A stretch of DNA of 30,818 nt from positions 1 through 30,818 of IMG/VR virus record IMGVR_UViG_3300030331_004259; one strand, 5' to 3'. Within the stretch, counting starts at the first letter, position 1. Each line of letters begins with the position of its first letter. The stretch comes from a virus. Below, in pieces: positions 4,633 to 30,818 of the stretch. The notes below the pieces were generated by a model. That model was given only the letters and a program-made list of their open reading frames with translations, made no database searches and was not told where the DNA came from. The position numbers and the translations under genes are program-made.

Positions 4633-7600
4633 ATGTCAGAAAAAAGAATTAAATTAAATCAAATTGTAAAAAGTCAATTACCCTCTTATGTCAAAGAGGA
4701 TTTTCCGCTTGTTGGTGAATTTTTGTCTCAATATTATACAGGACAAGAATATCAAGGTGGGCCAATTGATTTAATTCAAAATATTGACTCTTATATAAAA
4801 TTAAGTGAATGTGGTAACTTAATCAAATCAACAAATACGACTACAAAAGTTGGAGTAACGACTTCAACTATTTTTGTTTCCAACACAACAGGATTTCCTG
4901 ATAATTATGGTATATTAAAGATTAATGATGAAATTATAACTTATGAAAACAAAACAGATAATAGTTTCACAAACTGTGTAAGAGGTTTTAGTGGAATAAC
5001 ATCTTTTCGTAACCAATCAGATCCCGAAAATCTTGTTTTTTCAAGTTCTACAGCTGAAAATCATGAAAATGATGCTGTTGTCGAAAATTTAAGTGTTTTA
5101 TTTCTTGATGAATTTTTAAAAAAAGCAAAAAAACAATTTTTATACGGTTTTGAAAAAGATTTAAATGAAAATTTAAATAAACCTCAGTTTATTCGTCAAT
5201 CAAAAGATTTTTATTCAACACGGGGAACTGACGAATCTTTTAAAATTCTTTTTGGTGCTTTATATGGGGAAAAAGTTGATATAATTCGTCCAATTGAAAA
5301 TGTTATATCACCATCTAATGCAAATTATCAAAAAACAAGGGATATAATAGTTGAACCATATGTTGGTGATCCAGAAGATCTTTTAAATAAGACACTTTTT
5401 CAAGATGATTTTGAAAATGTGTCAAAAGCATACGCACCAGTTGGAGCAGTTGAAAAAATAGCTGTTGGAATAATTACAAATACATTTTATAAAATAAGTC
5501 TTGATGGATCTCAGGTTGTTCCTGACGGATCTACAAGTATGATATATGGTGAATTTTCTCCACATGCAAAAACAAAGATCATAGGTGAGGTTGGCATAGC
5601 TCAAACTTTTATCGATGTTGATTCCACTTTGGGATTCCCTAATTCTGGAACATTATCATTTTTATATAAAAATGGGACATCTGGTGTATGCACATATGCA
5701 GAAAAAACAATTAATCAATTTTTAGGAATTAATACAACAGGAATAACCACATCGATTGCAGATAATACATCCATTGATCAAAATACTTTTGCTTATTCTG
5801 GTGATGTTCAAGTAAAGATAAGAAATGTTTTAAACAATTTTATAATACCACCTCTGGTTAATAATCAAGTAGCAAATAGTAAAATAAAAATAAAAAATTT
5901 AGGTAAAGTTGGTGAAAGTGTAAAAGAAAATAATTGGTTATTTAACACAGCACAAAGTTATGTGGTTGAAAAACTTGAAATTATTGATAGCACAAACAAC
6001 ACTTTTAAATTAACAACTAAGGATACAAATATTTTAAGAATAGGTGATAAAATAACAACTCATGAAACTTTAGCTTCGGGATCTCAGTGGGGTGATAATA
6101 TAACAGATACTTTTGATCCTGCTTCAAATAAATTATATGTTGTAAATGATGTATTCAATAATAAAGAGTGTTTAATTTCGGGAACTGGAATTAATGATCC
6201 TCGTAAAATTACAAAAGTAACTAGGAGAATTTCCAAGGTTGATTCAGATATTCATTCAGATTTAAATATTTTTACCGCAAATATTCAAAATATATACACG
6301 AAACCTGACGGTGGTTTAGTAAATGGAGTGAAATATTTTGGGCCATCACATGAACATCCAACAAAGGGAGTTCAAATGGTTGGTGCTAGACACGTTCCGT
6401 TTCCACATGCAACCATAACACCAATTGAAGGTCAAAATAAAGTATATGTTGCATCATCATCTTTACCATTTACTGGTGTCACAAAATTAAATCCAAAAAC
6501 TCAAAAATTAACTTTTGGTGGAACATATAATTTAAACGATGAAGAGATAAAAATATCTGATCAGGTCGATCATAACTTTTTTACAGGGGATGCTGTTTAT
6601 TATACACCACAAAAAGGATCTGTTAATACGATTGACTCTGAGGGTAATGTAATAACTCAAGAGTTTATCATTAGTCGATTATTCCCAGAGGGTTTATATT
6701 ATGTAAAAAGAATTGATTCCAATACTGTAAAGTTAGCTAAAAGTCAATCTGATATTTACAGTGGCATATTTGCAAAAGTAACTCCGGACGGAGGAGTTGA
6801 TAATGTTACAATATCATCAAATGATATTGAAAAGTTTTACTTTAATGGTAAAAAAATAAGACCTCAAAAATTAATAAGAGAAATACTAACTCCTGTTAAA
6901 GATGGTAAAAAACATGAAACATCTCCAGGCTATACTGGTATACTTGTTGATGGTGTAGAAGTTTTAAATTATAAATCAAAAAATTTTGTTCACTATGGTG
7001 AATTAAAATCAATTAATATTGTAGATGGTGGAGAAAAATATGATATTATAAATCCACCTGTATTATCAATTGAAGACACTGTAGGTAGTGGTGCTACCGG
7101 TGTTTGTGCTGTAAGAGGGACACTAGAGGATATTCGCATATTAGATTCTGGATTTGATTATATTGAAGAACCAATTATCAAAATAACAGGTGGAAATGGA
7201 TTAGGAGCTAACGCAGTGGCGAAGCTCAATGCAAAACCTTATGAGATTATTTTTAATGGAGATGGTGTTGGTCTTGGGACAGTAAAATTAGACACTGCTG
7301 GTATTAATACCTCTTCAATAGGATTTACTACCTATCATAAGTTTAGACCGGGTGAGAGGGTCATATACGACCCTTTGGGAGGCATTCCCCTTGTTGGTTT
7401 ATCAACAGATTCTTTATATTACGTTTCCTCTGTATCTGAATATACCATTCAATTACATAAAACTTATGATGATGCAACTTCTGGTATCAACACGATTTCA
7501 TTTACAAATTTTGGATCTGGTGTTCAATCCTTCAAATCATTAAATGGAAAATCAATATTAAGTTCAATCGTAATATTAGATAAAGGATCAGGATATGAAA

Positions 7601-10600
7601 ATAAATCAAGATCTTGTGCATCCCTCGGTATTAATACATCTCTAAACACAGTTACTATTAAAAATCATGATTATAAAAATGGAGAAATTTTGCAATACTC
7701 TGTTGATGGAACAGTAGTTGATGGATTATCTACAAATAAAAATTACTATGTAACAGTAATTGATAATGATACTTTTAAATTATCAGAGGTTGGCACTGGA
7801 TCTACAGACAAACGATTTTTCTATGATACAAAACAATTCAATGAATTTAGAAATACAGGAGTCGGAACTCATAGTTTTAATTATGAACCAATATCAGTTG
7901 AAGTAATAGGTAAAGTTGGAATATCATCAATCGCTGGAAAAACATTTGAAGCTGTTGTTCAACCTATTTTTAGAGGTGAAATTACAAGTGTTGATTTGAC
8001 AAAAACAGGTGTTGGATACGGTGCATCTGAAATTTTAAACTTTGTTAGATCACCTAAAGTCAATTTGTACTCAGGTAAAGATGCAGTTATAACTCCTGTA
8101 GTGGCTAATGGAAGAATAGTTGATGTAAGTGTGAGTTATGGTGGAACTGATTATAATTCACCTCCAGATTTAGTAGTATTAGGAATAGGTTCGGATGCTA
8201 AATTAACTCCAGAATTAAATTCATCAGGTAATATAATTTCAGTTAATATTCAAAGCAGTGGAATCGGTTATGGAGTAACATCGACCTCAGTAAGAGTAGA
8301 ACCTTCAGGAAAAGGAATTAAATTTAATCCAGAACTTCAAAAATGGAGAGTAAATGAATTTAGAAAAAATTTATCAAATTTAAATGATGATGATGTATTC
8401 ATAAGCACACCAACTAATCGTCTTTTTGAATTACAGTGTTCTTATGTTTATGCCCCTAGAAATTTAAGAAGAATATCATATGCAAATGATCCGGATGGTA
8501 ATATTTTATATGGTAAAAAAGATTTAACACTCATTAATAACGTTGAAAGTAATAGCGATCAACACTCACCAATCATTGGTTGGGCTTACGATGGTAATCC
8601 AATTTATGGGCCATATGGTTACTCAACAAGAACTGGTGGTAGCATAGTTCAATTGAAATCTGGATACGTAGATGAAACTATAAAAAAATTCAATAGACCT
8701 CCGGTAAGTGTATTTCCACCTGAGTTTTTTGTGGAGGATTTTACATATAAAACATCAAGTGATGAAAGTGTTTTAGATGAAAATAATGGTAGATTTTGTA
8801 TAACTCCTGAGTATCCAAATGGAACTTATGCTTACTTCACAACGTTAGATTCAACTGCTGCATCGGATGGTATATTTAAAAACTTTAAAAAACCTAAGTT
8901 CCCATATTTAATTGGAAATGAATTTCATTCAGTACCAAATAAATTTAACTTTAGTAGATTATCAAATCAGGAAGATTTTGATTTAAATAAATCAAACTCA
9001 ATAAGAAATGTTTTACCATATTCATTTAATAAAGATTTTAGTGGATACGACTACGTAAGAGAGTCTTATAAATTTGTTAATCAAGATACTAATATTGATT
9101 TTGCTGAAAAAGGTAAAGTGGATAGTATTGGAATTACTTCTGGTGGAAGAAATTATAGAATTAACGATAGAGTTGTTTTTGATCCTAGTGTTGATAGTTC
9201 TTTTAAAGCAGATGGAAAGATTACATTACTAAATGGAGTATCAATATCTGAAATAAACGTTGATAGCACAAAAATTTCAAATATTGAGTTTTATCGCCAA
9301 ACCACAAATACTTTTGTTGGTATTGCATCAACCGCTTTAAATTTAAAGAATAATACAAAAGTAAGAGTGGGTGGACTTACCACAACAACATCATTTTTAG
9401 AGGGTGCTTATAACATTGGAGTGAGTTCATCTAAATTAGTTTTGACACAAGGAATAGGGACTGCCACAGCCACTGGTATCGTGACCTTCTTTAATATTTC
9501 TGGTAATTTATCTGATGTAAGAGAAAATGATATATTCAAAGTTGGAGTTGGAACAGAACAAATAAAAGTTCTTAATGTTGATCGATTATCATCAAGACTT
9601 AGAGTTCTTAGATCAGTTAATTCTACAACTGGTGTTTCTCATACAGCTTCAGTTGTTTTAGAAAGTATTCCAAGAAGATTTACCATAAACACAGGGGTAA
9701 ATACTACATCTAAATTAAAACAAAATAAAGAATTTTTCTTTAATCCACAAGAAAGTTTAGGTTTAGGAACACTTCCAACAAGTGGTGTTGGTGGCGTTGG
9801 AATTGGAAGCACGATAGTTTTTTCAAATCCCGGAACAGGGTTAACTCAAATATTTGCACCAACACAATCAATTTATCTGCCTAATCATGGACTTGAAACT
9901 GGTGATGAAGTTGTTTATGAATTAAACAAATTAAGTGGATCAGAACAATCACCATTAGTTAAATTCACCAATCTTCCACCCACAGTAAATACGTTTTTGG
10001 GTGTTGGTGTAACTTTATTTGTAGCAAGAAAATCAGTTGACTTTATAGGATTATCCACAATCCCAGTTGGAGTAGGATCAACTGGAGGATTTGTTGGATT
10101 TGCGACAAATGGTTCTTTTGTACCCATAGGAACAGGAAATGCGACACAACCACAATTTGATTTACTTTATTTTCTTAACTCAGGTATAGGGTCAATTCAT
10201 AGTTTGAGAACACAATTTCCTGTGGTAAAAGGTGAGTTAGAAAAAAATGTAGTTACGGTTGTTGGATCTGGAACACACGGACTTTTAACTAATGATACAG
10301 TTTTTATTGATGTTAAATCAGGTTTAACTACAACGGTAACGGTTAAGTACAATAAAGATAATCGTAAAGCAGTATTCAATCCTTTAAACTTTGTGGCAGC
10401 TGGAATAGTAACTGCTGGATTTTCAACGAACACCACAGGAAAAGTTCCAAGTTCAATTGAAATAAAAGAACATGATTTTGTCACAGGTCAAAAGGTAATT
10501 CATACTTCAGATGGGCCAGCTTTAGGATTAATTAATAACAAAGAATATTATGTGTATGTCGTTGATTCCGATACTATTAAGTTAGTTCACAACAAATATG

Positions 10601-13600
10601 AATTATCACAAACTACTCCTAAATTTGTTGGAATCACCTCAGCCGGAGATGGCACCCTATCATTAATTAACCCTCCTTTCAACTTTTATAGAAATTCTAA
10701 TGTTGTGTTTGATTTATCAGATGAATCTTTATCTTATACTCAAAGTGCAACAAAATATGCAGCATTTTATTTTGATTTTTATAAAGATAATAGATTTTCG
10801 GAAATATTTGAAACTACTGGATCATCAATAACATTTGATGTTTCTAGGACAGGAACAATCGGAGTCACTGGAGACGCTAAAGTAACGTTAAAAATAAAAG
10901 ATGACACTCCAACTACTTTATACTATAAATTATCACCAGTTGAAGTATCGGATAATTTAACAGAGAATAAGGATATTGTTGCAGACGATGATGTTAATTT
11001 AAACAATCAAATTTCTATTTTAGATAGCAAATTTAACGGAAGATTTGATATCATATCAACCGGATCCACAACCTTTACTTATGATATTGATACTTATCCA
11101 GAATCAGGTTCATACTCCTCAACAAATTCTAAATTAAGGTTCACAACAATTTCAACAAGTGCTTATGGTAGTGTTGAACAAATAACAATTACAGATGGTG
11201 GTGGTGGGTATAAAGAATTACCCGGTATAACAACTATAACATCAGATCTTGGTGTAGGAGCAGTTATAGAGCCTTTCTCAGTTAGTGTTGGTAAACCTAC
11301 AAAAGTATCTTTATCAAATATTGGATTTGATTATCCTAATGACATAACCTTAAGACCTGAAGCTTTATTTCCACAAGTTTTAAGAATAACACCTTTAACT
11401 GGTTTTAGATCAATCGGTATCACATCTTTTGGAAGAGGTTATATCACAAATCCAAGTTTAGTGGTAATTGATGGTGTAACAAAAAAAGAAATAACTGATG
11501 TTGATTTGAGATATAATCCAAATGAAGAAATAGTCGAAATTTTAGAAAATTCAGAATCTCTCAATAATGCTCCACCTACAATCATACCCATTGGTAACTC
11601 AAATGGTATTAGAGCGAAAAATTTTGAATATAATTCATCAACACAAGAGGTCACTGTTACTTTAAAAAATTCATTTAGTGGCACTTTAAATGCTATAGGT
11701 GAATATATTGATCCATTCCCATTTACCGTTGGTGACAAAGTATTAGTTGAAAAGGCAAGCGTTGGTGTGGGTTCAACTGGATTAGGATATAATTCTGATC
11801 AATATGACTATGCGTTATTCCCAGTAACTGCAGTTCATCCAAACTACGGTGGAATTGGAATAGTTACTTACAGCATGGCTGAATATCTGGAAAAAGACAC
11901 AGAATTTCCCGGTGTTTTTAATTTAGTTAAGTCTGCAGCAACGCTCATTCCTGATAAATGGTTCCCACAGTTTGATATTGTCTTACAACCAAATGATTTT
12001 AGAATTGATGATGAAATTCAAAGTATAGATTCTTCTGGTCTTCTTATCAAGGGAACAGTGGCTGATTGGAATAATTCAAGTAAATATTTAACGGTAGAAA
12101 GCACAAGAGAATTTGAAGTTGGTAGAATTGTTGAACAAGTAAAATTTAGAGGAGAGAGAATTGGAAGTAAGGAGTATTCTTCCCCTACCGGTGCAAAAGG
12201 AATTATAAAAGAAGTTATATCATACAAATCAAAATATAATTTAGATTATTTTTCAATCGTAGAAAATGGTTGGGAATTAGAAACTGGATTTTTAAATAAT
12301 GAACAACAGCGTGTTCATGATAATGATTACTACCATGCGTTTTCATACGCGATAAAATCCAAAGTTCAAGTGAGTGAATGGGAAGATACTGTTAGTTCTC
12401 TTAATCACACTTCAGGATTTAAAAAATTTAGCAATCTGCAAGTTGAATCAAAATTATCAGATTCAAGAGATGATGATTTAATTGTAAGACCTGTTGACGG
12501 AACAACGATATTAGTTGAATTAGTAGGTAAAGAAAGTTTACAATCATTCCATGATTTTGATTTAGCCTCTGAAAATTACATAACAGGTGCAGTTAAACCA
12601 TATTCTGATGAAATTAATTTCAAAACAAGATTATTAACGGATTACTCTGAATCTGTTTCTAACAGAGTTGTTACAATAGATGATTTTAGTAATTTATTTA
12701 ACAACAACGCAAGATCAACTCCTTTTGCAGATGTTTATAGAAACAGATTAGATGATGGTCGAGTTCAGTTCTTTGTGGCTTACATTCAAGACAGATTATT
12801 TACAGGTGAAAGACAAATCATGATAGTTAACACACTACATGATACTGGTCGTGGATTAACAATGATGAATCAGTATGGTTCTGTTGAAACCACTTTAGAT
12901 TTGGGATCATTTGATTTTGTCATAGATGGTGTTGAGTCTGTCCTTAGATTTTTCCCCCATAAATCTAGAATTAATGATTATAATGTCATATTATGGTCTT
13001 ACCAAATTGATAAAAACCAATTAGGTGTAACCACAACAAATGTTGCAACAGCAACCACATCTATTCCTGCTGAACCATTTAATCCATCAACATCTGAGGG
13101 TTTAAACGGATCTCTCGTTAGCATTCAATCAACATGTGTTTCAGTTGCTGGTGGTGCTGCTGGTACGGTGTTTACTCTTGCTGGTATTGGAACAACAGTT
13201 TCTGGACATAGATCAGCAAAATTATTTGTAAGTGTTGAAGGTAGTGATGGTAGTGTTGAATATGATCAAGTTAGTGTAATTCATGATGGCACAAATGTGG
13301 GATTCCAAGAATATGGTCAATTGACAGTTCATTCAAGTGATGCATATTCATCAACTGGTAACATTGGCACTTTCTTCCCATTAGTTGTTGGGAATGATCT
13401 TGTGGTCAGATACACCCCAGATGCTGGTTTAACAACAGCTTTTATAAATGCAACTGCAATTGGAATTGCAACTGAAGGATATATTGGTATTGGATCTTAT
13501 GATATGGCATATGCAGAGATGTCTGCACAGAGCACTGGTATCTCATCATCTTCGACACCAGTTGCAGTTGGTATCGCAAGTTACGGAGATGCTTATGATG

Positions 13601-16600
13601 CTGCATATTGTATCGTCCAAATAGCTGATAAATTGAATGGAAGTTATGAATTAGCAGAGGTAATAATAATTGATGATTTTACAGATGATGATAATGTTTA
13701 CTTAACTGAGTTTGGTAATGTAAAAGTTGGCACAGCGTTCGCTGGTTTAGGAACAATAAGTGGTAGAAGAACCTCTGATAATGTTACTGAAATAACATTT
13801 GTACCAAATGCTGGAATTGGAGTTTCCATAACAACATTCCTTAACTCTTTAAGAGTAGAGGAAAATACTGAATTATTACCAGCAGATGCAACTAGAGATG
13901 TTGGTGGCGAAGCTGTTAAAGATTTACAAAACGCCTCTATAGAAAGTGGATTTGCACAATATGAAGGAACAGAATCAGCGATAAAAACTAAATTTGCTCT
14001 TGAACATAATGGTGATCCTATATTTAAAAAACCTTATGATGGATCAACTTCAACTGTGGTTGATATAACAAATAACACAATTACTTTACCTAATCACTTC
14101 TTTGTAAGTGGTGAGGAGGTGTCATATGCACATACCGATAGAAGAACTGGAATTTCATCTGCAATAGGAATAGCATCAACCTCATTCCCATCTTTAGGTA
14201 TTACTACATCATTATTACCATCCTCATTATTCATTATTAAAAAAGGTGAAGATAAAGTTCAATTAGCAAGAACAGCAGAAGATGCGTTGAAAGAGGTCGC
14301 AGTTCCTCTTGACTTGACACATGTTGGAATTGGAACATCACATACATTTACTGGTAAAAATCCTAATACAAGAGTATTAGTTGCAATTGATAATTATCTA
14401 CAATCACCAATTGCTGGCACATCAGTTACAACAACTCTTGACAGAGCTGCTGATAAATCTCAAGATGTAATATTCTTCACAGGAATTACATCATTCTTTG
14501 GTGCTGATAATATTCGTGTAAGTAGTGGTAATACAAGTGAAGTGATGAAGATATTGTCAGTTGGAATTGGCACAACAAATGGAATTAAAGTAAGAAGACA
14601 AAGACTAGGAACAACAATTGCAGGATTCCCAACTGGATCACTTGTCGAAAAAATACGAGGTAATTATAATATTGTTGAAAACGAAATTGCGTTTGCAGAG
14701 GCACCTCCCGGAAAAAATCCAATTGGATCAACAACAAATCCACCTAGTGAGAGAGATTTTGTTGGAATAACCACTTCTTCTAGTTTCCAAGGTAGAGTAT
14801 TTACTCGATCTGGTATTACTAATGGAAATACTGAAACTTATGTTAGTAATCATTTGTATGATGATTTAACATCTGATTTTAATGGTAAAAATAGACAATA
14901 TGCACTTACTGTAGATAAAGCACAGAAAACAGGTATCGCAACTAACAACGCTTTGATACTTATAAATGGTGTTCTTCAAGCTCCCGGATCAAATGGTAAT
15001 TTTGAATTAGACACAGTAGGATCTGGAACAACAATTACTTGGACTGGTGCTGCAAGTTCAGTGGCAAGAGACATCAATACAGCTGGAATACCTGTTGGTG
15101 GAGTAATTATATCTGTCGCATCAACAAGTGGTTTTGGATATCAACCATTAGTTTCAGCTGGTGGAACTGCTGTGGTATCACTAGCAGGAACAATCAATAG
15201 TGTAAGTATAGGTAATACAGGTTCTGGTTATAGATCAGGCATTCAAACAGTGTCTGTAGGTTTGCAAACTGAGGGATTTGATCACTCTGGTATCACAACC
15301 ATTGGTCTTGCTAATGTTAGTGGTGGTCATGTTACTGATGTGACTATTACCAACCCACAATTCTTCTACAAACCAAGAGATATTTACAATGTTGGATATT
15401 CTTCGATCACTGGTATAACAACCATAACCACAGCATTTGCACATAATTTATCCGTTGGAAATGAAGTGGTTGTATCTGGTATTGCATTCACATGTGACTA
15501 CGCCCCAGCTGTCGGAGTGCAGAGTGCAAATTATGATAACACCACTGGTATCATGACGGTAACTACACTTGCTGCTCATGGATTATCTACAACTGGTAAG
15601 AGCAGTGATGTAATATTAACTGGTTTGGCATTTACATGCGGACTTGGTGCGACAGTAAATCATATCTATCCAAGAAACAGAGATCGTTTCTTTGACACTG
15701 CAATATCCGTTGCATCAACAACAGCAACAACCATAACTTTAGATGTATCAAAATCTCCTATTGGTCAACAATATACTCATAGATTTATAGGTGCTGCAAG
15801 TAGTGCTGTGATACAAGGTGGTGATTATTCTCATACATTCCGATATGCACTTCCAAATGCAGTGACAACAGGTGTTGGAACTCAGTTTACGCCAACTAAT
15901 GCGACATATAACGCATCAACTGGAGTATTTGTAATATCAATACCAAGTCATGGTTTATCAACAAATGATACTGTTGGTATTGGCACGAGTTCGATTGTCT
16001 TCTCTTGCGAGATGGATCATTATGGAAGTGATCATCCATATCCAAGACCGACTGATCCGATAGCTGGCATACAAACTGCAATCACTGCTGTAACCACTAA
16101 TACCATAACAATAAACGTAGGTAAGTCTGAATTAAACTTCTACGATGTATCTGACGCAACATATGCTGCTGATACTGGTGTATTAGTTCTTACAATAGGT
16201 TCTCATACCCTATTACCGGGAAGAAGTATAAAACTTAAAAAAGAATCATTAAGATTTACCTGCTCTAAAAATAATTTTGCAACTCAACATAAGTATCCAC
16301 GAGAGGGTGATCCTGTATTTGATGGAACACCCGTGGTTGGTGTTGCGAGTGCTACTCAATTCACAATAAATGCTGGCATATCTACTGTTCCTACAGATTA
16401 CGTTTCTGGTGGATTCATACAACCAGCGATAATCGCACCAAGAGCGAATAATAACTCACCAAGTGGTCAAGATGTAGCTTTTGATGGATCAACAGTGTTA
16501 AGAGTTTTAAGTGCAACAGAGTTTGAAATTAATAGTGGTATTTCAACAAGAGCTCATTTGTACGCAAGAGGTGGTAGAGTTGATCAATTAACAAAAATTG

Positions 16601-18447: not shown

Positions 18448-18463
18448 AATAAAAAAATCTCAA

Positions 18464-20014
18464 ATGGCAGCTATAATTACTGATCAGATAAGAATATTAA
18501 ATGCAAAGAATTTTGTTGCGGGAGTTTCAACGTCTACTAATTCATATTATTCGTTTGTGGGTTTGACTGATCCAACAAGTATTCAAACTGACTGGGATGA
18601 TGATCCACCTTCACCAATAGATAATTTTAATAATCAAAATGATATTTGGGATACAATTATTGCTGTTAAAAAAATAAATGACACTGATGTAAAACAAGTT
18701 GTTAAGAGGAATTCTTGGACTTCTGGAACAACATATGATTATTACAGACCAGATTATAGTGTGATAAATCCCCCTAAACACGCTCAAGGAACATCATTAT
18801 ACTCATCCAATTATTTTGTTTTAAATAGTGATTTTAGGGTTTATATTTGTTTAAAAAATGGAACAAGTCCAGAGCAACCTGATGGTAAACCATCTCTTGA
18901 TGAACCAACTTTTACTGATTTAGAACCAAAAGCTGCTGGCACGAGTGGTGATGGATATATTTGGAAATATCTCTATACAATTAAACCATCAGAATTAATA
19001 AAATTTGATTCTACTGAATTTATGCCAGTGCCATCAGATTGGTCAACTGGAACTGATAACGCTCCTGTGAGAGATAATGCAGTTGATGGTGGTATAAAAG
19101 TTGTTATAATTCAAAATCGTGGTGTTGGTTTAGGAACTGCAAATAGAACATATACTAGAGTTCCAATTAAAGGTGATGGTAGTGGTGGAGAGTGCACAGT
19201 AGTTGTAAACGCTGATCAACAAATAGGATCTGTCGATGTAACTAATCAAGGATCTGGATATACATTTGGTAATGTGGATATTGTTGCAGGTGGTTTGCCA
19301 AGACCAGATGCTTATCCTCAACTTGATGTTATTATTCCTCCAACTGGTGGACATGGATCGGACATTTACAAAGAATTGGGTGCAACAAATGCCTTGGTGT
19401 ATTCAAGAATTGAAAACGATTCAGAAAATCCAGACTTCATCACTGGTAATCAAATTGCAAGAATAGGTATTGTAGAAAATCCACAAGCTTTTGGTTCATC
19501 ATCACTTCTTTCTTTAGATAAAGCAAGTGCAGCCTACGCTCTTCGTTTAACTGGAACGGGGTATAGTAGTGCGACTTTTACAGCAGACTCTATCATAACT
19601 CAAACAACTGGAACTGGTGTTACTGCTATTGGTAAAGTTATAAGTTATGATCAAATAACAGGTGTATTAAAGTATTGGCAAGATCGCACGATGGCAGGAT
19701 TTACAACTGTTGGTGCAGCTACCACAACACCTATATTTGGATTAAATGCTGATAGGTTCACGGCAGACATAGCGACCGGTGGTAGTGTAAGTATTACTGG
19801 TGGCAGTATACCACTTGAAATAAACACAGCATTTGATGGTCTGTCAACCTCAATAAATAATAAAACATACTATCTTGGTCAAACATTTACAAGTGGCGTG
19901 TCAAATCCAGAAGTTAAAAAATATTCTGGAAATATACTTTATGTTGATCATCGACCAGCTATCACTCGTTCTTCTAATCAAAAAGAAGACATAAAAGTTA
20001 TATTGCAGTTCTAA
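18464..20014 (+). CDS. 8: baseplate wedge subunit gp8 (cyanophage type), 516 aa
   Basis: gp8 is a wedge protein that in T4 dimerises and binds gp7 and gp10. The N-terminus MAAIITDQIRILNAKNFVAG and the segment YSFVGLTDPTSIQTDWDDD, then DIWDTIIAVKKIN and VVKRNSWTSGTTYDYYRPDY, are the pattern of gp8 in marine T4-like phages, as is DGYIWKYLYTIKPSELIKF. At 516 residues it is well over T4 gp8 (334). Some extra length is a beta region containing SVDVTNQGSGYTFGNVDIVA (residues 256-275), the same Gly-x-Gly-Tyr repeat found in the giant protein. The ATG lies behind a run of A with no strong ribosome binding site. The end (SSNQKEDIKVILQF) matches the conserved gp8 C-terminus. Confidence 0.85.
   Translation: MAAIITDQIRILNAKNFVAGVSTSTNSYYSFVGLTDPTSIQTDWDDDPPSPIDNFNNQNDIWDTIIAVKKINDTDVKQVVKRNSWTSGTTYDYYRPDYSVINPPKHAQGTSLYSSNYFVLNSDFRVYICLKNGTSPEQPDGKPSLDEPTFTDLEPKAAGTSGDGYIWKYLYTIKPSELIKFDSTEFMPVPSDWSTGTDNAPVRDNAVDGGIKVVIIQNRGVGLGTANRTYTRVPIKGDGSGGECTVVVNADQQIGSVDVTNQGSGYTFGNVDIVAGGLPRPDAYPQLDVIIPPTGGHGSDIYKELGATNALVYSRIENDSENPDFITGNQIARIGIVENPQAFGSSSLLSLDKASAAYALRLTGTGYSSATFTADSIITQTTGTGVTAIGKVISYDQITGVLKYWQDRTMAGFTTVGAATTTPIFGLNADRFTADIATGGSVSITGGSIPLEINTAFDGLSTSINNKTYYLGQTFTSGVSNPEVKKYSGNILYVDHRPAITRSSNQKEDIKVILQF
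19229..19288 (+). repeat. Gly-x-Gly-Tyr repeat copy in gp8
   Basis: SVDVTNQGSGYTFGNVDIVA at gp8 residues 256-275, preceded by a GDGSGGECTVVV strand like the Gly-turn strands of the giant-protein copies. Confidence 0.7.
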
Positions 20015-20020
20015 TAACTC

Positions 20021-23000: not shown

Positions 23001-26000
23001 TTTTTGATAGCAGTGATGATGGAGATATTGTTACAACCAATTCATACAATTCTTTAGATTATAAAAAAGATGTTCAATCTTTTGGTGGTTTAAGGAACAC
23101 TGATGTCATTGATATCAGACCAAGAGTTTCTAATTATACTGTAACTGAAGGTAGTAGATCTCCTTTAGAATTTTTGGGTAGAGGATTAAATGGATCTGGT
23201 AATTCTGCATCTAATATTTTAGCTTCAAATGAATCTATATTAACTGATTTTTCATATTATCTAGGACGTATTGATAAAATATATGTGACTAAAAATGGAA
23301 AGTTAGTTGTTCAAAATGGTGCTCCAGCTGAAAAACCTGATGCACCCATAGCTATTGATGATTCATTAGAATTGTGCACAGTTACTTTACCTCCATATCT
23401 TTTTAATGTTTCAGATGCCTCTTTATCTTTCATGAAACATAAAAGATATCGAATGCAGGATATAAGAAAACTTGAAGAAAGGATAAAAAATCTAGAATAC
23501 TATACAGCACTTACTTTACTTGAAACAGCCACTGCTAATTTATTCATATCTGATGAAGATGGATTAAATAAATTCAAATCAGGATTTTTTGTTGATAATT
23601 TTACAACATTTTTACCACAAGAAACAAGTTTAAAAATAAAAAATAGTATTGATACTCGAAATAAAGAGACCAGACCATCTCACTACACCAATTTAATTGA
23701 TTTACAAATTGGCCCAGTGGAGGGTGAGAACACAATTTATAATGGAGCAGAACCTGAAGGAAATAATATTAAAAAAACTGGTTCTTTATTGACTTTGGAT
23801 TATACGGAAACACCTTATCTAAACCAACCATTTGGAACAAGAACTGAAAGTGTTACTCCCTTCATGTTAAATTTTTGGAGAGGATCTGTTGAGTTAATAC
23901 CAGCAACTGATACTTGGGTAGATACTGTTAGATTAGAAGCTAAAATAATAAACGTTGAGGGTAATTACGCATCTACAATCGAAGCAGCAGATGGATTTGA
24001 CCCACAAACGGGACTAACAGCCGAAATTTGGAATGGTTGGGAAACTTATCATTTTGGAACTGAAACTACAACAAGAACACAGAACAGACAGGAAACATCA
24101 GTTGGTGAAATATATTATCAATCAATGTCATCTGATAGAACAGATGTTCTTCAAACCACAACCACAACGACATTTCAAGACACTTTCACAGAAACTTTTG
24201 AGATTGCACATCAACAACGTGAAGGATCTAGGCAACTAATTACAGAGGTATTTGATGAAGAATCAGTTGGTGATAGAACTATTAGTTCAGAGGCAATTCC
24301 TATAATTAGATCTCGTAACGTTGCATTTGAAGGTAAAGGATTTAGACCACAAACTAGATTATATGTATTTTTTGATGGAAAAAATGTTACACAACATATT
24401 GTTCCAAAACTCCTTCAAATTTCAATGACTAAAGGAGTATTCCGAGTTGGTGAAACGGTAACTGGAACAATGGGTAGTCAGGTACGTGGAATAAATCTGC
24501 CACGAATAACATTTAGAGTTGCGGTATCGAATCATAAAGAGGGGCCTTTTAATGCACCAACAAGAATATACGCTAAAAATCCTTACACCTCTGAAGTAGG
24601 CCCTACTGAACTTGAAACATATTCTGGTAGTCCGGGACAAGTTCAACTTGCATCAAGTGGTAATACTGCGAATATACCGTCTACTTACTCATCAACTTCA
24701 ACAACGTTAAATGTAGATACAATATCATTATCTGATCAACCACAAGGAACATATTTTGGTAAAGTTGCAAGTGGTATGATTCTAAAAGGTAATGAATCTG
24801 GTGCAGAGGCAACAATTACTGATGTAAAACTTATTTCCGATTTTGCTGCTTCTATTCAAGGTAGTTTCTTTATCCCAGATCCAAATCTTAACAACAATGA
24901 TAAATTTGAAACAGGACAAAGAGTTTTTACATTAACAGATAGTCCTACCAATAATATTACAACGGCGACCACTGTTGGTGAAGACACTTATGATGCAAGT
25001 GGAACATTAGAAACAGTTCAAGAAAATATTATATCTGTAAGAAACGCAAAAGTAGAAAACTTACAGTTTAATGAGTCAAGAAATGTAAGAACATTTACCG
25101 GAACAAGCGTCGACACTGTACAGACAGGACAAACAACTTCAACTCAACTAATTGACACTATTTGGGAAGATGATGATCCTTTAGCTCAAACATTTTTTGT
25201 TAGTGATAACACCGGTGTTTATGCAACGAGTGTTGATGTATTTTTTGAAAGAACTGATGATACAAACACACCAGTGCAATTAGATATAAGAACAGTTGAA
25301 TTAGGTATACCAAGTAAAAAAGTATTACCATTTTCTAGGGTATTTCTTGATCCAGATCAAATAGAAGGTAATCTATCTACAAACGGATCCTTACCAACAA
25401 AATTCACTTTCCAATCTCCTGTTTACTTATCTCCAGCAACCGAATATGCAATTTGCATGTTGTCCGCATCGACAAAATATCGTGTATTCATATCAAGAGT
25501 TGGAGAAAATGATTTGATAACTGATGAATTTGTATCAAATCAACCTGCTTTGGGAACATTATTTAAATCACAAAATGCATCTACATGGACACCTAGCCAG
25601 TGGGAGGATTTAAAGTTTACTCTGAATCGAGCAGTATTTGAACCATCTGGTAGCGTAGAGATTTATAGTCCCATATTATCAGAGGGAAATGCTCAAATAC
25701 CAAGATTAAGACCAGATTCTCTTAACTTTGAATCTAAGAAAATAAGAGTCGGTTTATCATCAGCTTTTGCTGCGGGTATTCATCCAACTCTTGGTAATAC
25801 AATTACTCAACAAGGATCTAATGCATCGGGTAATTTTGTAGGAAGTGCTGGTGCTGCGTCAGGATCATTAACTGTTACAAGAGCTGGTTTAGGATATACA
25901 TCTGCAAACGCTTCAGTTTCCTCTCGTGGTGGTTCTGGACATACCATAGCAGGAGTTGCTTTAACAACAATAATAGGTAATGGTAGAGATGCTAAAGCAT

Positions 26001-27673
26001 CAGTTGTTTACAATAATGGGTCAGTGGTTTCTGCTACAATTAGTGATGGTGGTGCAGGATATCAAGTTGGTGACGTATTAGGTATTACGACAAGTTTAGG
26101 TATAAATGGAAGATTAACTGTCGCATCAATTGGTAGCACAAGTGAAATAATTATTGATAATGTTCAGGGTGAATTTGCTGTGGGAACTGGAAAAACTTTA
26201 ATGTATTCTAGTGTTACCGGTGTTTCGAGTGCAATCACCGGAAACGGTGGTGAGATTGGTGCTAATATTCCATCTGGTAAAATCACTATTATGTCAGATG
26301 GTCTTCATGTTACTGTTGACCATAAAAATCATGGAATGTATCATCAAAACAACCAAGTAATTATTTCTGGTGCTGAGAGTGATGTAACACCGACTAAGTT
26401 AACATCTGCATATGAAAATGATTCTACCGCTTCAATATCAATCGGTAGCACATCAGACTTTACTACTTTTGAAAATGTTAGTGTTGCATCAACTAATCCA
26501 GGCTATATAAAAATAAGAAATGAAATCATAAAATACACTGGATTTTCTGGAAATACTTTGACAGGTATAACTAGACAACAAGATTCGACTCTTTCACAAA
26601 ATTATGTGAGTGGTGATTTGGTTACAAAGTATGAGTTAAATGGTGTTTCATTACGTAGAATTAATACAACTCATAATCTTGGCATTGTGACTGCAACAAA
26701 TCCAATAACGTTTGATTCTTATAAAGTTAAATTAGATATGGGTGCTAATGGTATTGGAAGAAGCACAACAACTGTTACAGACTATCCACCTAGATTATTA
26801 CCGATTGATACAAAATCAACTGGTGGATTAAATATACGTGCTACACAAAACATGCCTTTTGAGTTAATAACTCCGATTGTTTCAAATGTTACTGTTTCTG
26901 GAACATCAATTGATGCATCAATAAAAACAGTCAGTGGTACGAGCTTAAATAGTGGATCAGGGCAAGGATCTGATACACCGTTTGTTGTGAAACCAGCAGA
27001 GAGTATTTCTTTAAATAAAACAAATTACTTGGATTCTCCAAGAGTCATAGCATCTAGAGTAAATGAAACAAATAATGTTGCAATAACAAATCTTCCCGGA
27101 GATCGTTCATTTAACATGACACTTAATCTTGAAACAACAGATGCTCGCATATCTCCAACGATCGATACAGATGCAATAAGTGCATGTCTTACATCAAATA
27201 GAGTTGGTAAATTAGTATCTAACTTTGAAAGTGATAAACGAGTTAAGAGTTTGAAAGATGATCCATCATCATTCCAATATGTTTCAAAAGAAAATAGACT
27301 TGAAACATCAGCAACATCTTTGAAAATTATTCTTGATGCTCACATAAATGAATATTCTGATATAAGAGCTTTCTTCGCGGTAAGTGAAAATGAGGGATTT
27401 GATCCAATATTTGTACCATTCCCCGGATTTAATAATTTAAATGAAAAAGGTCAAGTGATATCTATCGATAAAAGTGACGGTAGGCCAGATGTTCTTGTAC
27501 CATTATCAGATGCTAGTGGATTTGTCCCATCAGAAATTGAATATAAGGAATATACATTTAGTATAAATGATTTACCAGCATTTAAATCATTTAGAATTAA
27601 ATTAGTGGGAACATCAACCAATCAAGCGTATGTTCCGAGATATACAAGTCTTAAAGTGATCGCTCTTGCATAA
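20021..27673 (+). CDS. DUF4815-family large virion structural protein, 2550 aa
   Basis: The N-terminus (LNVSPYFDDFNADDNYYKVL, then PGLPVQARELTGLQSILQNQ and FGQHIFKEGAKVIPGNTSYY) is the DUF4815 signature of phage tail proteins. In order follow beta regions, a short helical stretch starting MKHKRYRMQDIRKLEERIKN (from residue 1138) likely forming a coiled coil, a Thr-rich QTTTTTTFQDTF segment (about 1384-1395), the widespread phage motif IPIIRSRNVAFEGKGFRPQT with FFDGKNVTQHI (about 1426-1460), a receptor-like beta region, Gly-x-Gly-Tyr repeats (1948-2045) and a C-terminal domain with DIRAFFAVSENEGFDPIFVP. It starts six bases after gp8 and shares its last base with the next gene. It sits where T4 has genes 9 and 10; a peripheral baseplate or fibre-network role is inferred. 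Confidence 0.85.
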   Translation: MAQTTNLNVSPYFDDFNADDNYYKVLFKPGLPVQARELTGLQSILQNQITKFGQHIFKEGAKVIPGNTSYYNDYFCVELNNEYLGITVESYIDQLLDRKIVGLSSGVTAVITKVLKSRNSERGNLTLYIKYYASNSANNEGGKFVDGELLAADVDIISGPENSVFIPSGEAFASTISSNSTSTGASYSISEGVYFIRGTFVTVNTETIILSQYSNSPTGRIGLRILEETINADEDPTLTDNSKGFNNFAAPGADRLKITCSLFFKGIDDVNDNDFVELASVRDGELKSRPTTSDYNILGDELARRTFSESGNYTVKPFSISVKESLNNQIGNNGIFGDGESTDQGSIADESLGLYQVSSGKAFVKGYEIEKIGSSYLDFEKPRTIKLLENQRVNYNTGSTIKLNRVLGSPQVGFGNTQIVSLRSQRQGSQSAANIMSAPGEEIGLARVYDFALESGSYNTSNSNINQWDISLFDIETFTKITLNANHTLSTPTFIEGKFSGATGFLRSSISNTTSLEIYEKSGDFVINEPLIFDGVEDSRISIAVTSFGVSDVKSIFGGPGLTDQNSGDVGFARTFTGDIVQKNEFVFGNGLLKRSDLTTGLSTVTSSNPQFPGKIKVGNILKFGAGTNDPKFARVTAVGLDDVTVTGVTTVSGICDGGLSIGDPTTAETTLSDLTLVTSPFESSQDNTLFTSLPKRFVSDVDLSNTTLTIKKLFDVKINASTDSLTASVSSGNNETFLPFDDDRYSLIRQDGTIELLTDDKFTFSGGNSSLQISNVGSDLSNNEDATLIATLAKIKPSAKIKKKNRVNSLVVDKSKLSGSGIGATTLNDGLSFGSFPFGTRVQDKKISLNTPDIISVLGIFESLDTNDPSCPKLTISSLDNQTGKASDLIIGEKIVGSQSNTVAILSEILSETQISFIALNEGEFKDNESISFEESNTTALVSSLDIPSKNISSNFNFNTGQESTFYNHGFITRKVNASEPRKKIKIYFENLFFDSSDDGDIVTTNSYNSLDYKKDVQSFGGLRNTDVIDIRPRVSNYTVTEGSRSPLEFLGRGLNGSGNSASNILASNESILTDFSYYLGRIDKIYVTKNGKLVVQNGAPAEKPDAPIAIDDSLELCTVTLPPYLFNVSDASLSFMKHKRYRMQDIRKLEERIKNLEYYTALTLLETATANLFISDEDGLNKFKSGFFVDNFTTFLPQETSLKIKNSIDTRNKETRPSHYTNLIDLQIGPVEGENTIYNGAEPEGNNIKKTGSLLTLDYTETPYLNQPFGTRTESVTPFMLNFWRGSVELIPATDTWVDTVRLEAKIINVEGNYASTIEAADGFDPQTGLTAEIWNGWETYHFGTETTTRTQNRQETSVGEIYYQSMSSDRTDVLQTTTTTTFQDTFTETFEIAHQQREGSRQLITEVFDEESVGDRTISSEAIPIIRSRNVAFEGKGFRPQTRLYVFFDGKNVTQHIVPKLLQISMTKGVFRVGETVTGTMGSQVRGINLPRITFRVAVSNHKEGPFNAPTRIYAKNPYTSEVGPTELETYSGSPGQVQLASSGNTANIPSTYSSTSTTLNVDTISLSDQPQGTYFGKVASGMILKGNESGAEATITDVKLISDFAASIQGSFFIPDPNLNNNDKFETGQRVFTLTDSPTNNITTATTVGEDTYDASGTLETVQENIISVRNAKVENLQFNESRNVRTFTGTSVDTVQTGQTTSTQLIDTIWEDDDPLAQTFFVSDNTGVYATSVDVFFERTDDTNTPVQLDIRTVELGIPSKKVLPFSRVFLDPDQIEGNLSTNGSLPTKFTFQSPVYLSPATEYAICMLSASTKYRVFISRVGENDLITDEFVSNQPALGTLFKSQNASTWTPSQWEDLKFTLNRAVFEPSGSVEIYSPILSEGNAQIPRLRPDSLNFESKKIRVGLSSAFAAGIHPTLGNTITQQGSNASGNFVGSAGAASGSLTVTRAGLGYTSANASVSSRGGSGHTIAGVALTTIIGNGRDAKASVVYNNGSVVSATISDGGAGYQVGDVLGITTSLGINGRLTVASIGSTSEIIIDNVQGEFAVGTGKTLMYSSVTGVSSAITGNGGEIGANIPSGKITIMSDGLHVTVDHKNHGMYHQNNQVIISGAESDVTPTKLTSAYENDSTASISIGSTSDFTTFENVSVASTNPGYIKIRNEIIKYTGFSGNTLTGITRQQDSTLSQNYVSGDLVTKYELNGVSLRRINTTHNLGIVTATNPITFDSYKVKLDMGANGIGRSTTTVTDYPPRLLPIDTKSTGGLNIRATQNMPFELITPIVSNVTVSGTSIDASIKTVSGTSLNSGSGQGSDTPFVVKPAESISLNKTNYLDSPRVIASRVNETNNVAITNLPGDRSFNMTLNLETTDARISPTIDTDAISACLTSNRVGKLVSNFESDKRVKSLKDDPSSFQYVSKENRLETSATSLKIILDAHINEYSDIRAFFAVSENEGFDPIFVPFPGFNNLNEKGQVISIDKSDGRPDVLVPLSDASGFVPSEIEYKEYTFSINDLPAFKSFRIKLVGTSTNQAYVPRYTSLKVIALA
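25862..26155 (+). repeat. Gly-x-Gly-Tyr repeats in the DUF4815 protein (residues 1948-2045)
   Basis: Two copies: LTVTRAGLGYTSANASVSSR and VSATISDGGAGYQVGDVLGI, separated by Gly-rich turns and a small-residue strand (DAKASVVYN). This is the full repeat with the intervening Gly-turn-strand element. Confidence 0.72.
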
Positions 27674-27894
27674 TGGATTACAAAAAAGTAAAAGGTAATG
27701 AACATTTAGTAAAAAATACTAAATCTAATTTTATAATTAATACCAATAAATCTGAGTATGATGAATATGTCACTCGTCGTAAACTCAAAAAAAATGAAAA
27801 AAACAAAGTAGAAAATCTTGAAAGAGATCTTTCCACTCTTAGAGGTGAACTTGATGAAATTAAAAATTTGTTAAGGAGTTTAGTAAATGGCTGA
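27673..27894 (+). CDS. 73-aa basic coiled-coil protein
   Basis: A short, very Lys-rich protein. Residues about 20-35 read FIINTNKSEYDEYVTRR; residues about 43-71 (KNKVENLERDLSTLRGELDE, then IKNLLRSL) form hydrophobic heptads typical of a coiled coil. Its ATG shares one base with the DUF4815 stop (TAATG), and its last eight bases overlap the next gene, whose ribosome binding site AAGGAG (27873-27878) lies inside this frame. That arrangement points to coupled expression in fixed ratio with its neighbours. Similar small coiled-coil proteins sit here in related phages, without known role; an assembly cofactor or trimerising adaptor is a guess. Confidence 0.75.
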   Translation: MDYKKVKGNEHLVKNTKSNFIINTNKSEYDEYVTRRKLKKNEKNKVENLERDLSTLRGELDEIKNLLRSLVNG

Positions 27895-28813
27895 TGTCAC
27901 TTCATCTAAAATTCAATTTGATGATAAGGGATCTACATCAAGATATAATCTTGTTTTAAATCAACATGCTGATAACTTTATTGAATTTTCAGTTGTAGGA
28001 TCTGGAGGAACAACATTTAATTTAAGTGGATATGCTTTTTCTGGTTCAGTCAGAAAACATATTGGATCGTCGTCAACCGCCACTGATTCTGTAAATTTAG
28101 GTTTTGATACCGGTGGCAGGGCTGTTGGTGTCATCACTGCTAGAGTAACTGCTGGATTAACAACAAATTTTAGTAAAATAAGTCCAAGATATACTTATGA
28201 CATCATAACCACTGATAACACATCTGGTGTTAAAAGAAAATTAGTAACAGGGGATGTAAATGTTGATGTTGGTGTTACGAAAGTTGGAGGAGGAGGCACT
28301 GATGATAGTGATGATGTATTAGGATCAAATAGAATATGTATTGCTGTTATTGACGAATCATCAAGTGCAGGAAGTGTGAATTCGGCAAACTCAGCATCAA
28401 ACGCAGTTACAGTATCCGAATATAATGCCTTCAGAGAAACTTTTCCAAATAGAAAACATTATATATTACAACCAACACCAACAGGTATCGCAAAAACTGA
28501 AGCGATAATGACAGATGCGGTAAAAGCTGTGTATGTGAGTGGATTTACTGATGGAAGACAAGTTCAAGGTGTAAATAGAGATGGTGGTGATGCGTCTGAA
28601 GCATCTGATTGGTTTAATATAGTTGGCATCAGCACGATGAATATTACAAAACTCGCATTATTCATTGATACTTCGGGTAGTATGGATTTAAACACAGTGG
28701 CTGCCTCACGAGCAAAATTTATAGGAACATGCACCGCTAATGGGATCACGATTCGTGAAGAGGATAATGGTGATGAAGATTGGATTGAACCATTCACAGG
28801 GATATTAGCATAA
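27887..28813 (+). CDS. VWA-like virion protein with an N-terminal beta domain, 308 aa
   Basis: Residues 1-140 form a beta domain (NFIEFSVVGSGGTTFNLSGY, FSGSVRKHIG, SPRYTYDIITTD, VTGDVNVDVGVTKV) resembling upper-baseplate or fibre-anchor domains. A Gly/Asp linker follows. Residues about 149-308 look like a von Willebrand A fold: RICIAVIDESSSAGSV gives D156-x-S158-x-S160, the first metal-site motif, and KLALFIDTSGSMDLNT gives D261-x-S263-x-S265, placed where the third MIDAS aspartate strand would fall; ANGITIREED and WIEPF close the domain. The strong AAGGAG ribosome binding site eight bases before the ATG supports the start. The stop shares a base with the next ATG. It may mediate metal-dependent adhesion on the baseplate or a fibre; this is inferred. 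Confidence 0.68.
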   Translation: MADVTSSKIQFDDKGSTSRYNLVLNQHADNFIEFSVVGSGGTTFNLSGYAFSGSVRKHIGSSSTATDSVNLGFDTGGRAVGVITARVTAGLTTNFSKISPRYTYDIITTDNTSGVKRKLVTGDVNVDVGVTKVGGGGTDDSDDVLGSNRICIAVIDESSSAGSVNSANSASNAVTVSEYNAFRETFPNRKHYILQPTPTGIAKTEAIMTDAVKAVYVSGFTDGRQVQGVNRDGGDASEASDWFNIVGISTMNITKLALFIDTSGSMDLNTVAASRAKFIGTCTANGITIREEDNGDEDWIEPFTGILA

Positions 28814-29199
28814 TGGCAGTAAAAAAATTAATCAATGTCACGCAAATAAAAAAAGATCTTTTCATTCCTAGAAATGTGAATTATGAAGAGTCTTTTACGA
28901 TAAAAGATAGGATCACTGGAAGTGGTGTTAGTTTTAGTGGTTTTTCATCATCAATATTGACATCAAGAATTAAACAACATCCAGACTCAGTATCAATTGC
29001 TTGCACTTTTACAGCAGCATTTACAGATGCATCATCTGGGGTTTTAAAATTATCACTTACACCAACTCAAACAAATCAATTAAAATCAGGAAGATATTTC
29101 TATGATTGTGTAATAATAACTGAGGATAAACCCAACGCTGATACAGCTGGTGATTTACATATCGAGAGACTTGTACAAGGTCAAGTCATAGTAGAATAA
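28813..29199 (+). CDS. 128-aa beta-domain virion protein, paralogous to the preceding N-terminal domain
   Basis: The protein is a single beta domain: RNVNYEESFTIKDRITGSGV, SFSGFSSSILTSRIKQHPDS, SSGVLKLSLTPTQTNQLKSG, RYFYDCVIITED, IERLVQGQVIVE. The order (N-terminal D/E-x-F strand, SGF/SGY with S-x-x-R, [SG]-x-L/I strand, RYxYD-[CI]-[VI]-I-T, G-x-V-x-V) parallels residues 1-130 of the preceding 308-aa protein, so the two are probably ancient duplicates. The layout also recalls the BppU-type N-terminal domains that anchor receptor-binding proteins. Translation is coupled to the previous gene (TAATG), with AGGGA at 28798-28802 as a weak ribosome binding site. Likely a baseplate or fibre anchoring part; exact role unknown. 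Confidence 0.65.
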   Translation: MAVKKLINVTQIKKDLFIPRNVNYEESFTIKDRITGSGVSFSGFSSSILTSRIKQHPDSVSIACTFTAAFTDASSGVLKLSLTPTQTNQLKSGRYFYDCVIITEDKPNADTAGDLHIERLVQGQVIVE

Positions 29200-29202: not shown

Positions 29203-29222
29203 GATTGAGGAGATAGCATAAC

Positions 29223-30071
29223 ATGGCTCAACCATCAAGTAGATCAACACTAATAGATTATTGCAAAAGGCAACTGGGTGCTCCACTGCTTGAGATTAAT
29301 ATTGCAGATGAGCAAACTGAAGATCTCTTAGATGATGCTATACAATATTTTCAAGAAAGACATTTTAACGGTGTCATACAAACCTTTTTAAAATATAAAA
29401 TAAGACAAGAAGACGTTGATAGATCTAGAGGAAAGGGTGCAGAAAATCAGATAGGAATTGTAACCACAACAACCAGTGGGACAGTTGCAGGAATATCGAC
29501 AACATTTAGTTTTGAAGAGGATAGTAATTATCTAATAATGCCTGATTCGGTGATTGGTGTTAATAAATTATTTCATTTCGATGGTGCTAACACAGTCACT
29601 AATAACATGTTTAGTGTTAAGTATCAATTATTTTTAAATGATGTTGCATTTAATTTAGGATATGCTGGTATTCTTAATTATGCAATGACAAAGAGATACT
29701 TAGAGGATATAAATTTTGCTTTGACTACAGAGAAACAAATAAGATTTAATCAAAGACAAGATCGTTTATATATGGACATGGATTTTGCATCAATGACTGT
29801 TGATGATTATCTTGTTATTGATTGTTTTAGAATAATAGATCCAAATGATCACACAGGTGTATATAATGATTACTTCTTAAAAAGGTATCTCACTGCATTA
29901 ATGAAAAGGCAATGGGGACAAAATTTAATTAAGTTTCAAGGTGTAAAATTACCGGGTGGTGTAGAATTAAATGGTAGACAAATATATGATGATGGTCAGA
30001 GAGAATTAGATGTTATAAGAGAACAGATGTCAAACACATACGAGTTACCACCACTCGATTTCATAGGATAG
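29223..30071 (+). CDS. 13: neck protein gp13
   Basis: gp13 joins gp14 to form the neck collar that seals the filled head and docks the tail. The family signature is clear at the start: STLIDYCKRQLGAPLLEINI, then DEQTEDLLDDAIQYFQERHF and FLKYKI, typical of T4-like gp13. Further on are PDSVIGVNKLFHFD, the helix NYAMTKRYLEDINFAL, then RQDRLYMDMDF and the helical KRYLTALMKRQWGQNLIKFQ with LPGGVELNGRQIYDDGQREL near the end. At 282 residues it is slightly shorter than T4 gp13 (309). A strong ribosome binding site fixes the start. Gene 14 begins four bases after its stop, as expected for the pair. Confidence 0.93.
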   Translation: MAQPSSRSTLIDYCKRQLGAPLLEINIADEQTEDLLDDAIQYFQERHFNGVIQTFLKYKIRQEDVDRSRGKGAENQIGIVTTTTSGTVAGISTTFSFEEDSNYLIMPDSVIGVNKLFHFDGANTVTNNMFSVKYQLFLNDVAFNLGYAGILNYAMTKRYLEDINFALTTEKQIRFNQRQDRLYMDMDFASMTVDDYLVIDCFRIIDPNDHTGVYNDYFLKRYLTALMKRQWGQNLIKFQGVKLPGGVELNGRQIYDDGQRELDVIREQMSNTYELPPLDFIG

Positions 30072-30075
30072 TGAC

Positions 30076-30818
30076 ATGGCTCTTAATCCATTTTTCCAAC
30101 AAGGGTCAAAGACTGAGCAAAACTTAGTTCAATCTCTTATTAATGAACAACTCCAAATCTATGGTGTGGAAGTTCATTATTTGCCAAGAAAATACGCAAC
30201 ATCAAATACAATTATTAAAGAAGTTGTTGAATCAAAATTTGATGATGCTTTTCCATTAGAGGCATACGTAGAATCTTTTGATGGATATGGAGATAATCCA
30301 ACTTTATTATCTAAGTTTGGAATACAACAGACAAATGAATTAACACTTACTATATCAAGAGAAAGATTTGAAACATATATTACACCACTTATAGAAGATC
30401 TATCAAATATTAAATTATCTACAAGACCAAAAGAGGGGGACTTAATATATTTTCCGTTAGGTGATCGATTATTTGAAATTAAATATGTAGAGCATGAGCA
30501 ACCATTTTATCAGTTAAGAAAAAATTATATCTATACATTACGTTGTGAACTCTTCCGTTACGAAGATGAAATTATCGATACTGGTGTTGATGAAATAGAT
30601 GATACATTAGCGGCCACAGAAGGTGTAGATGGTGAGGATTTTATTGTTGGAAGCACACAGGTATTAACATTAGTAGGCACTGCATCAAGAGCAACTGCTG
30701 TTACTGGAATTTTAACAAGTGGTATTCAGTTCATAGATATAACAAATCGAGGACGTAATTATACGTTTGCTCCAAGGGTCGCCATATCATCTGCTCCAAC
30801 TGGAGGAACAACCGGTAT
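30076..30818 (+). CDS. 14: neck protein gp14, 3' end cut by the window edge
   Basis: The partner of gp13 in the neck. The start MALNPFFQQGSKTEQNLVQS, then INEQLQIYGVEVHYLPRKY, VESKFDDAFPLEAYVESFDG and SKFGIQQTNELTLTISRERF, and later RPKEGDLIYFPLGDRLFEIK and QLRKNYIYTLRCELFRYEDE match gp14 of T4-like phages. The 247 residues seen nearly equal all of T4 gp14 (256), yet no stop is reached: after an acidic linker (about 176-195) the chain enters a beta extension with FIDITNRGRNYTFAPRVAIS (residues about 219-238), the repeat found in the baseplate proteins. The true length lies beyond the window. Confidence 0.92.
   Translation, partial: MALNPFFQQGSKTEQNLVQSLINEQLQIYGVEVHYLPRKYATSNTIIKEVVESKFDDAFPLEAYVESFDGYGDNPTLLSKFGIQQTNELTLTISRERFETYITPLIEDLSNIKLSTRPKEGDLIYFPLGDRLFEIKYVEHEQPFYQLRKNYIYTLRCELFRYEDEIIDTGVDEIDDTLAATEGVDGEDFIVGSTQVLTLVGTASRATAVTGILTSGIQFIDITNRGRNYTFAPRVAISSAPTGGTTG
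30721..30813 (+). repeat. Gly-x-x-Tyr repeat copy in the gp14 extension
   Basis: IQFIDITNRGRNYTFAPRVA lies at about residues 217-236, followed by a Gly-Gly turn where the window ends. It resembles cluster 4 of the giant protein (TGGRGYDSAPTVTI) most closely. More copies may follow past the edge. Confidence 0.7.

Follow-up and report, generated by a model that had tools for sequence, protein, structure and literature searches.

A beta repeat shared by neck, baseplate and other virion proteins of a marine T4-like cyanophage, with a possible remote relationship to domain I of the T4 tail sheath protein

Four virion proteins of a marine T4-like cyanophage, the giant gp7 homologue, gp8, a DUF4815 protein and gp14, share a repeat of about 40 residues, and judged by sequence profiles the copies are homologous. 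We consider it about an even bet (probability roughly 0.5) that the repeat is an exposed docking or decoration module, present from neck to baseplate and related to domain I of the T4 tail sheath protein gp18; exposure and docking we infer by analogy with the T4 domain. The window, which is the whole stretch of DNA analysed, is a 30,818-nt IMG/VR fragment from a phage of the Kyanoviridae close to S-SM2. Its gene order is that of S-SM2, and its gp14 is 71-75% identical to the gp14 proteins of Synechococcus phages S-SM2 and SynMITS9220M01. The giant ORF is followed by gp8, the DUF4815 protein, gp13 and gp14 (Table 1). Elsewhere in the window, the ORF at 1572-2261 bears the name ferredoxin both in PHROGs (phrog_3704) and in S-SM2, yet is without any Pfam match, and the name looks doubtful. 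Two adjacent ORFs at 27887-29199 have their PHROG matches (1084 and 3304, for L-shaped tail fibre assembly) in common, which suggests a duplication.

Table 1. Repeat-bearing genes of the window and the repeat copies assigned to them
Feature	Position	Strand	Evidence and remarks
Giant baseplate wedge protein, gp7 homologue, 4603 aa	4633..18444	+	phrog_2885 baseplate wedge subunit, E 0; syntenic with 4156-aa S-SM2 gp7
Giant copies 1-2, tandem pair, aa 787-874	6991..7254	+	30.0 and 37.8 bits
Giant copies 3-5, tandem array, aa 1113-1244	7969..8364	+	40.7, 39.8 and 38.9 bits; last two predicted to fold as one domain (AlphaFold)
Giant copy 6, aa 1492-1544, GRNYRIND subtype	9106..9264	+	29.9 bits; copy closest to T4 gp18 domain I
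Giant copies 7-8, aa 2177-2228 and 2254-2296	11161..11520	+	19.1-32.6 bits; marginal copy between
Giant copy 9, aa 3517-3574	15181..15354	+	21.5 bits
Giant copy 10, aa 4024-4067	16702..16833	+	21.2 bits
Giant copies 11-12, C-terminal tandem pair, aa 4331-4429	17623..17919	+	Copy 11, 36.5 bits (family profile); copy 12, 21.6 bits (seed profile, which includes copy 12)
gp8 homologue (baseplate wedge)	18464..20014	+	PF09215, E 6e-13; PDB match T4 gp8 1n7z
gp8 copies 1-2, aa 207-276	19082..19291	+	hhalign vs gp14 array 95.6%, E 1.3e-8; in segment without T4 gp8 counterpart
DUF4815 (VrlC-like) virion protein, 2550 aa	20021..27673	+	PF16075, E 1e-55; PDB relative 9euf
DUF4815 copies 1-2, within aa 1935-2075	25823..26245	+	hhalign vs gp14 array 95.3%, E 2.2e-8; family alignment
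gp14 neck protein	30076..30816	+	PF11649, E 7e-34; window end cuts at aa 247 of ~474
gp14 copy 1, aa 213-247, cut by window end	30712..30816	+	41.8 bits; three further copies beyond window

The repeat comprises three strands, an ATAxV strand, an IxxIxIxxxGxGY strand with its turn, and a PxVxI strand, and it often occurs in pairs. In the alignment, the first Gly of the Gly-x-Gly-Tyr-type turn is invariant, and no conserved site stands out beyond the turn-forming Gly, Tyr and Pro. The sequence-only reading, from which this work started, had described the copies by the literal pattern [TDS]-x-G-G-x-[GN]-Y. This is too strict: the pattern occurs above shuffles, with three instances in the giant protein and one in the DUF4815 protein, and is absent from gp8 and gp14. 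The looser G-x-[GN]-Y is found 11 times in the giant protein, against a shuffle mean of 2.8. By itself, the motif is weak evidence for a shared repeat. The gp14 array is not covered by any Pfam or NCBIfam model, and papers describing the repeat in cyanophages were not found in the literature searched, which covered few subscription journals.

Profiles gave a somewhat different count of copies. In the giant protein, for which about 14 had been proposed, 12 are clear, in the sense of exceeding 19 bits in one of two profiles, and two or three more are marginal; the first copy starts near 6991, slightly earlier than the 7009 originally given. The gp8 homologue has two copies instead of one, and the two expected in the DUF4815 protein were recovered. 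The single copy noted in the gp14 extension is the one inside the window, and full-length gp14 has four. A YHYH domain of the giant protein (aa 1301-1409, 8533-8859) lies shortly downstream of the three-copy array.

Profiles trained separately on one protein detect the copies in the others. A profile of 14 giant copies matches S-SM2 gp14 (E 1.3e-7), and a profile of gp14 copies only matches residues 4331-4379 (33.6 bits) and 2177-2213 (22.5 bits) of the giant protein and residues 250-276 of gp8 (15.6 bits), compared to 6.7 bits for the best hit among 202,000 decoy residues. With the giant-only profile, residues 1998-2046 of the DUF4815 protein score 12.4 bits versus 9.0 for the best decoy, which is marginal on its own. 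Profile-profile comparison (hhalign) with the gp14 array, however, yields 95.3% for the DUF4815 protein and 95.6% for gp8, whereas control segments of the same proteins and the gp14 core mostly stay below 1% (maximum 3%), and column shuffles peak at 6.6% (DUF4815) and 3.0% (gp8). PHROGs independently assigns residues 4316-4419 of the giant protein to the gp14 family (E 2.4e-19, whole protein). The separately trained profiles and the shuffled profile-profile comparisons thus argue for a repeat that is shared by gp7, gp8, the DUF4815 protein and gp14, and not for chance. This was the central claim of the sequence-only reading, and with the corrections given above it is borne out. The barrel segment ITGxTSGATA of gp14, a candidate for another shared module, has a weak match in the DUF4815 protein (17.9 bits) and could not be established by sequence in gp8 or T4 gp7.

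Two of the proteins that carry the repeat, gp8 and gp14, have T4 counterparts without it. The gp8 core is present in the window protein (Pfam match and 1n7z alignment, Table 1), and T4 gp8 aligns to residues 3-193 and 483-516 only, with the repeats in the unmatched part. Similarly, gp14 has the conserved core (PF11649; structural match of the model to T4 gp14, Z 11.4), and T4 gp14 matches this core only, up to residue 168. None of the 18 T4 structural proteins that were profiled has a clear repeat, the best being gp18 with 9.4 bits. T4 gp8 and gp14 align on both sides of, or up to, the repeat segments but do not have them, which agrees with the earlier view that proteins of different core have gained the same module. 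An ancient repeat has probably been added to the cores of gp7, gp8, the DUF4815 protein and gp14, either within them or at an end. Residues 345-482 of gp8 (19496-19909) form a second segment without T4 counterpart, which is not the repeat.

The merged repeat profile was run against the whole S-SM2 genome and the structural regions of five other phages, a search of the kind that had been suggested from the outset. Only virion proteins scored above decoys, and nothing did so in the T4 region. These hits are gp7, gp14 and, in S-SM2, another virion structural protein (15101-19372), which also has PA14 matches and whose repeat copies are weak (E 2.2e-5). The gp8 of Pelagibacter phage HTVC008M is matched by the gp14 profile (E 2.3e-3). 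A search of PHROGs gives 16-22 families with the repeat, including baseplate wedge, neck, tail fibre, hub-lysozyme and virion structural families, and at E<=0.001 every family to which a function has been assigned is a virion protein. A count of four proteins is thus correct for the window and an undercount across phages. The repeat may also explain an annotation problem: the gp7 homologue of HTVC008M (33435-36482) is labelled 'head closure Hc2', as is phrog_3465, most likely because its repeats match gp14.

The copies appear to have kept their places. Full-length gp14 has four tandem copies in 72 of the 72 complete relatives, and the same number is found in S-SM2, P-SSM2, S-SRM01 and DSL-LC02. 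All 256 gp14 copies compared are nearest to the same-position copy of another phage. The C-terminal tandem pair of the giant protein is kept, position included, in the gp7 of the related loci compared. Identity is 0.74 for the gp8 insert versus 0.73 for the gp8 core; for gp14, it is 0.53 for the array versus 0.73 for the core, the array being similar in this respect to the rest of the C-terminal half. Longer gp7 ORFs hold more copies (six to seven in ORFs of 3133 and 3652 aa, 10-11 in ORFs above 4150 aa). Between repeat-bearing genes of the same genome, the best DNA match extends over 42 nt at 83%, and the giant segment involved is conserved in other phages. Recent spread by in-genome recombination, a mechanism that had been offered as a possibility, finds no support, and the nearest-neighbour test, the fixed copy number and the small DNA match speak against it. 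Instead, the positional nearest neighbours and the conserved gp8 insert favour an old and fixed architecture over recent shuffling.

In the AlphaFold model of giant residues 1090-1262, two consecutive repeats are predicted as one compact domain (pLDDT ~95 over aa ~1144-1231), and the copy that precedes the compact pair is poorly predicted. For full gp14, pLDDT is near 90 across much of the repeat region. Two consecutive repeats may hence suffice to build one compact beta domain. Residues 193-450 of the gp14 model align discontinuously to a T4-type gp7 barrel (Klebsiella phage 9f4a chain A0, aa 767-850; Z 8.5, 77 residues), which suggests that the array is inserted in a beta-barrel; the match is apparently to the barrel around the array, and not to the repeats themselves. 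The structural neighbours of the giant pair model are weak. They include Ig C1 domains, with Z 4.4-4.8 over ~75 residues, a level that the tool flags as possibly just a common arrangement, and gp18 domain I, with Z 4.1. Foldseek found no match to the pair model at E<=0.001. When the gp14 array and the repeat region of the DUF4815 protein were searched by sequence against the PDB, nothing usable came up, and a search with the single-repeat profile returned marginal gp18 and chance rows only.

Among characterised proteins, T4 gp18 domain I (PF22639, 3FOA/3FO8) looks like the closest relative of the repeat, albeit a remote one. The comparison of the gp18 family domain I with the family of giant residues 1485-1575 by hhalign gives 90.6%, and 17 control segments stay at or below 3.2%. 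The first unit of the domain alone reaches 94.6%, a value to be compared with column shuffles that exceed 50% in one of 200 cases (maximum 58%); the second half of the domain does not match the repeat. PF22639 is the leading Pfam model for 16 of 29 relatives (best E 2.1e-4), and the next family is hit by one. These matches stay below the curated cut-off (27 bits), the copy in the window scoring 14.7 bits (E 0.03). The tests by hhalign and Pfam largely share one giant copy and are not independent. Residues 1499-1550 of the giant protein align with model positions 6-57 of PF22639, with the GxNYxVxD signature in register. The structural match of the pair model to domain I, a six-stranded beta-barrel (3foa 99-175, 2.7 A, 63 residues), is weak and slightly below that to Ig domains, which leaves the link in fold short of decisive. 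At the start of the matched range, model residue 74 pairs with gp18 residue 99, and Y85 would fall on Y110 if there is no gap between. On three cyanophage sheaths, domain I was not detected. The T4 domain resembles the repeat in its turn and strand signature, in being an inserted domain and, as far as the weak structural match goes, in its beta arrangement and the register of the motif tyrosine, and differs in its location on the sheath and in being present once per protein, whereas the repeat has several copies.

The T4 domain suggests what the repeat might do. Domain I of gp18 protrudes without inter-subunit contacts, its binding partners are the baseplate and the long tail fibres in their retracted state, and the mutations G106S, S175F and A178V inhibit fibre retraction (PMC3004832). 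In the GenBank numbering of gp18, residue 106 is proline, residue 107 is glycine (the G of GSNY) and residue 179 is alanine. The glycine of G106S must therefore be the G of GSNY, and so the invariant position of the repeat. By analogy, the repeats would be exposed knobs that dock tail fibres or neighbouring tail and neck parts. A common surface decoration or docking unit was one of the roles first considered, and it draws some support from the remote match to this protruding, fibre-binding domain.

A role of the repeat as a weak glycan or cell-envelope binding module, making many low-affinity contacts with the cyanobacterial surface, appears rather unlikely. Promiscuous Ig-like domains are small beta modules that have been added to many unrelated phage virion proteins. 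The repeat is comparable as a small add-on, and the weak Ig C1 resemblance points in the same direction; however, this may reflect just a common arrangement, and no Ig-type Pfam family is among the matches. Tail fibre and hub-lysozyme families are among the PHROG matches, and the tailspike depolymerases Dpo31/Dpo36 (PDB 8ck1, 28lx) may contain a pair of copies, with two consecutive motifs at aa 434-506; unlike the other repeat proteins these are depolymerases, and the E value is 0.0045. The gp14 array, which evolves faster than its core, would also fit a binding surface, a point against the docking reading. On the other hand, no conserved site beyond the turn-forming residues stands out in the repeat; the gp14 copy number is fixed, and the gp8 copies are conserved like the core, both unlike typical host-range modules. 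An exposed docking module would fit these data better than a variable host-range adhesin.

It is also unlikely that the repeats are architectural filler. On this view, they would be rigid beta spacers with no specific partner, serving to extend the giant gp7 and to give baseplate and neck more stability. The higher copy number in longer gp7 ORFs, the fixed position of the C-terminal pair and the apparent insertion of the gp14 array in a beta-barrel would be in line with such a function. Yet the giant copies are scattered singly or in twos and threes and do not form a continuous rod, and the related T4 domain is a knob whose partners are known. A chance or compositional likeness of glycine-rich beta segments is highly improbable and is refuted at the sequence-profile level for gp7, gp14, gp8 and the DUF4815 protein: the bare motif is just moderately over-represented, but the profiles cross-detect with far lower decoys, and shuffles reach at most 6.6% compared to 95%.

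In T4, domain III of gp13 (190-239) binds fibritin (PMC12270204). The cyanophage gp13 (window 29223-30071) lacks ~37 residues at the T4 fibritin-binding domain, according to one lineage comparison. With phmmer, a single-sequence search that can miss diverged fibres, no homologues of wac, gp9, gp10, gp11 or gp12 were detected in the S-SM2 genome. The gp14 arrays resemble the T4 fibritin (wac) collar and whiskers in their site at the neck, where T4 fibritin holds tail fibres, and differ in consisting of beta repeats. The lack of a fibritin match in S-SM2 and the ~37-residue gap in gp13 suggest, on the basis of one genome and one lineage comparison, that the gp14 arrays may stand in for the fibritin collar.

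Giant baseplate proteins are a feature of marine T4-like cyanophages. Tentatively, these phages might use one reusable gp18-related knob, on the neck, the baseplate and other tail proteins, for holding fibres or assembling appendages, in place of the sheath knob and the fibritin collar; we regard this wider scenario as possible, if doubtful. By connecting the four proteins gp7, gp8, DUF4815 and gp14 with a T4 domain for which mutants have been described, the repeat provides a concrete structural and genetic hypothesis.
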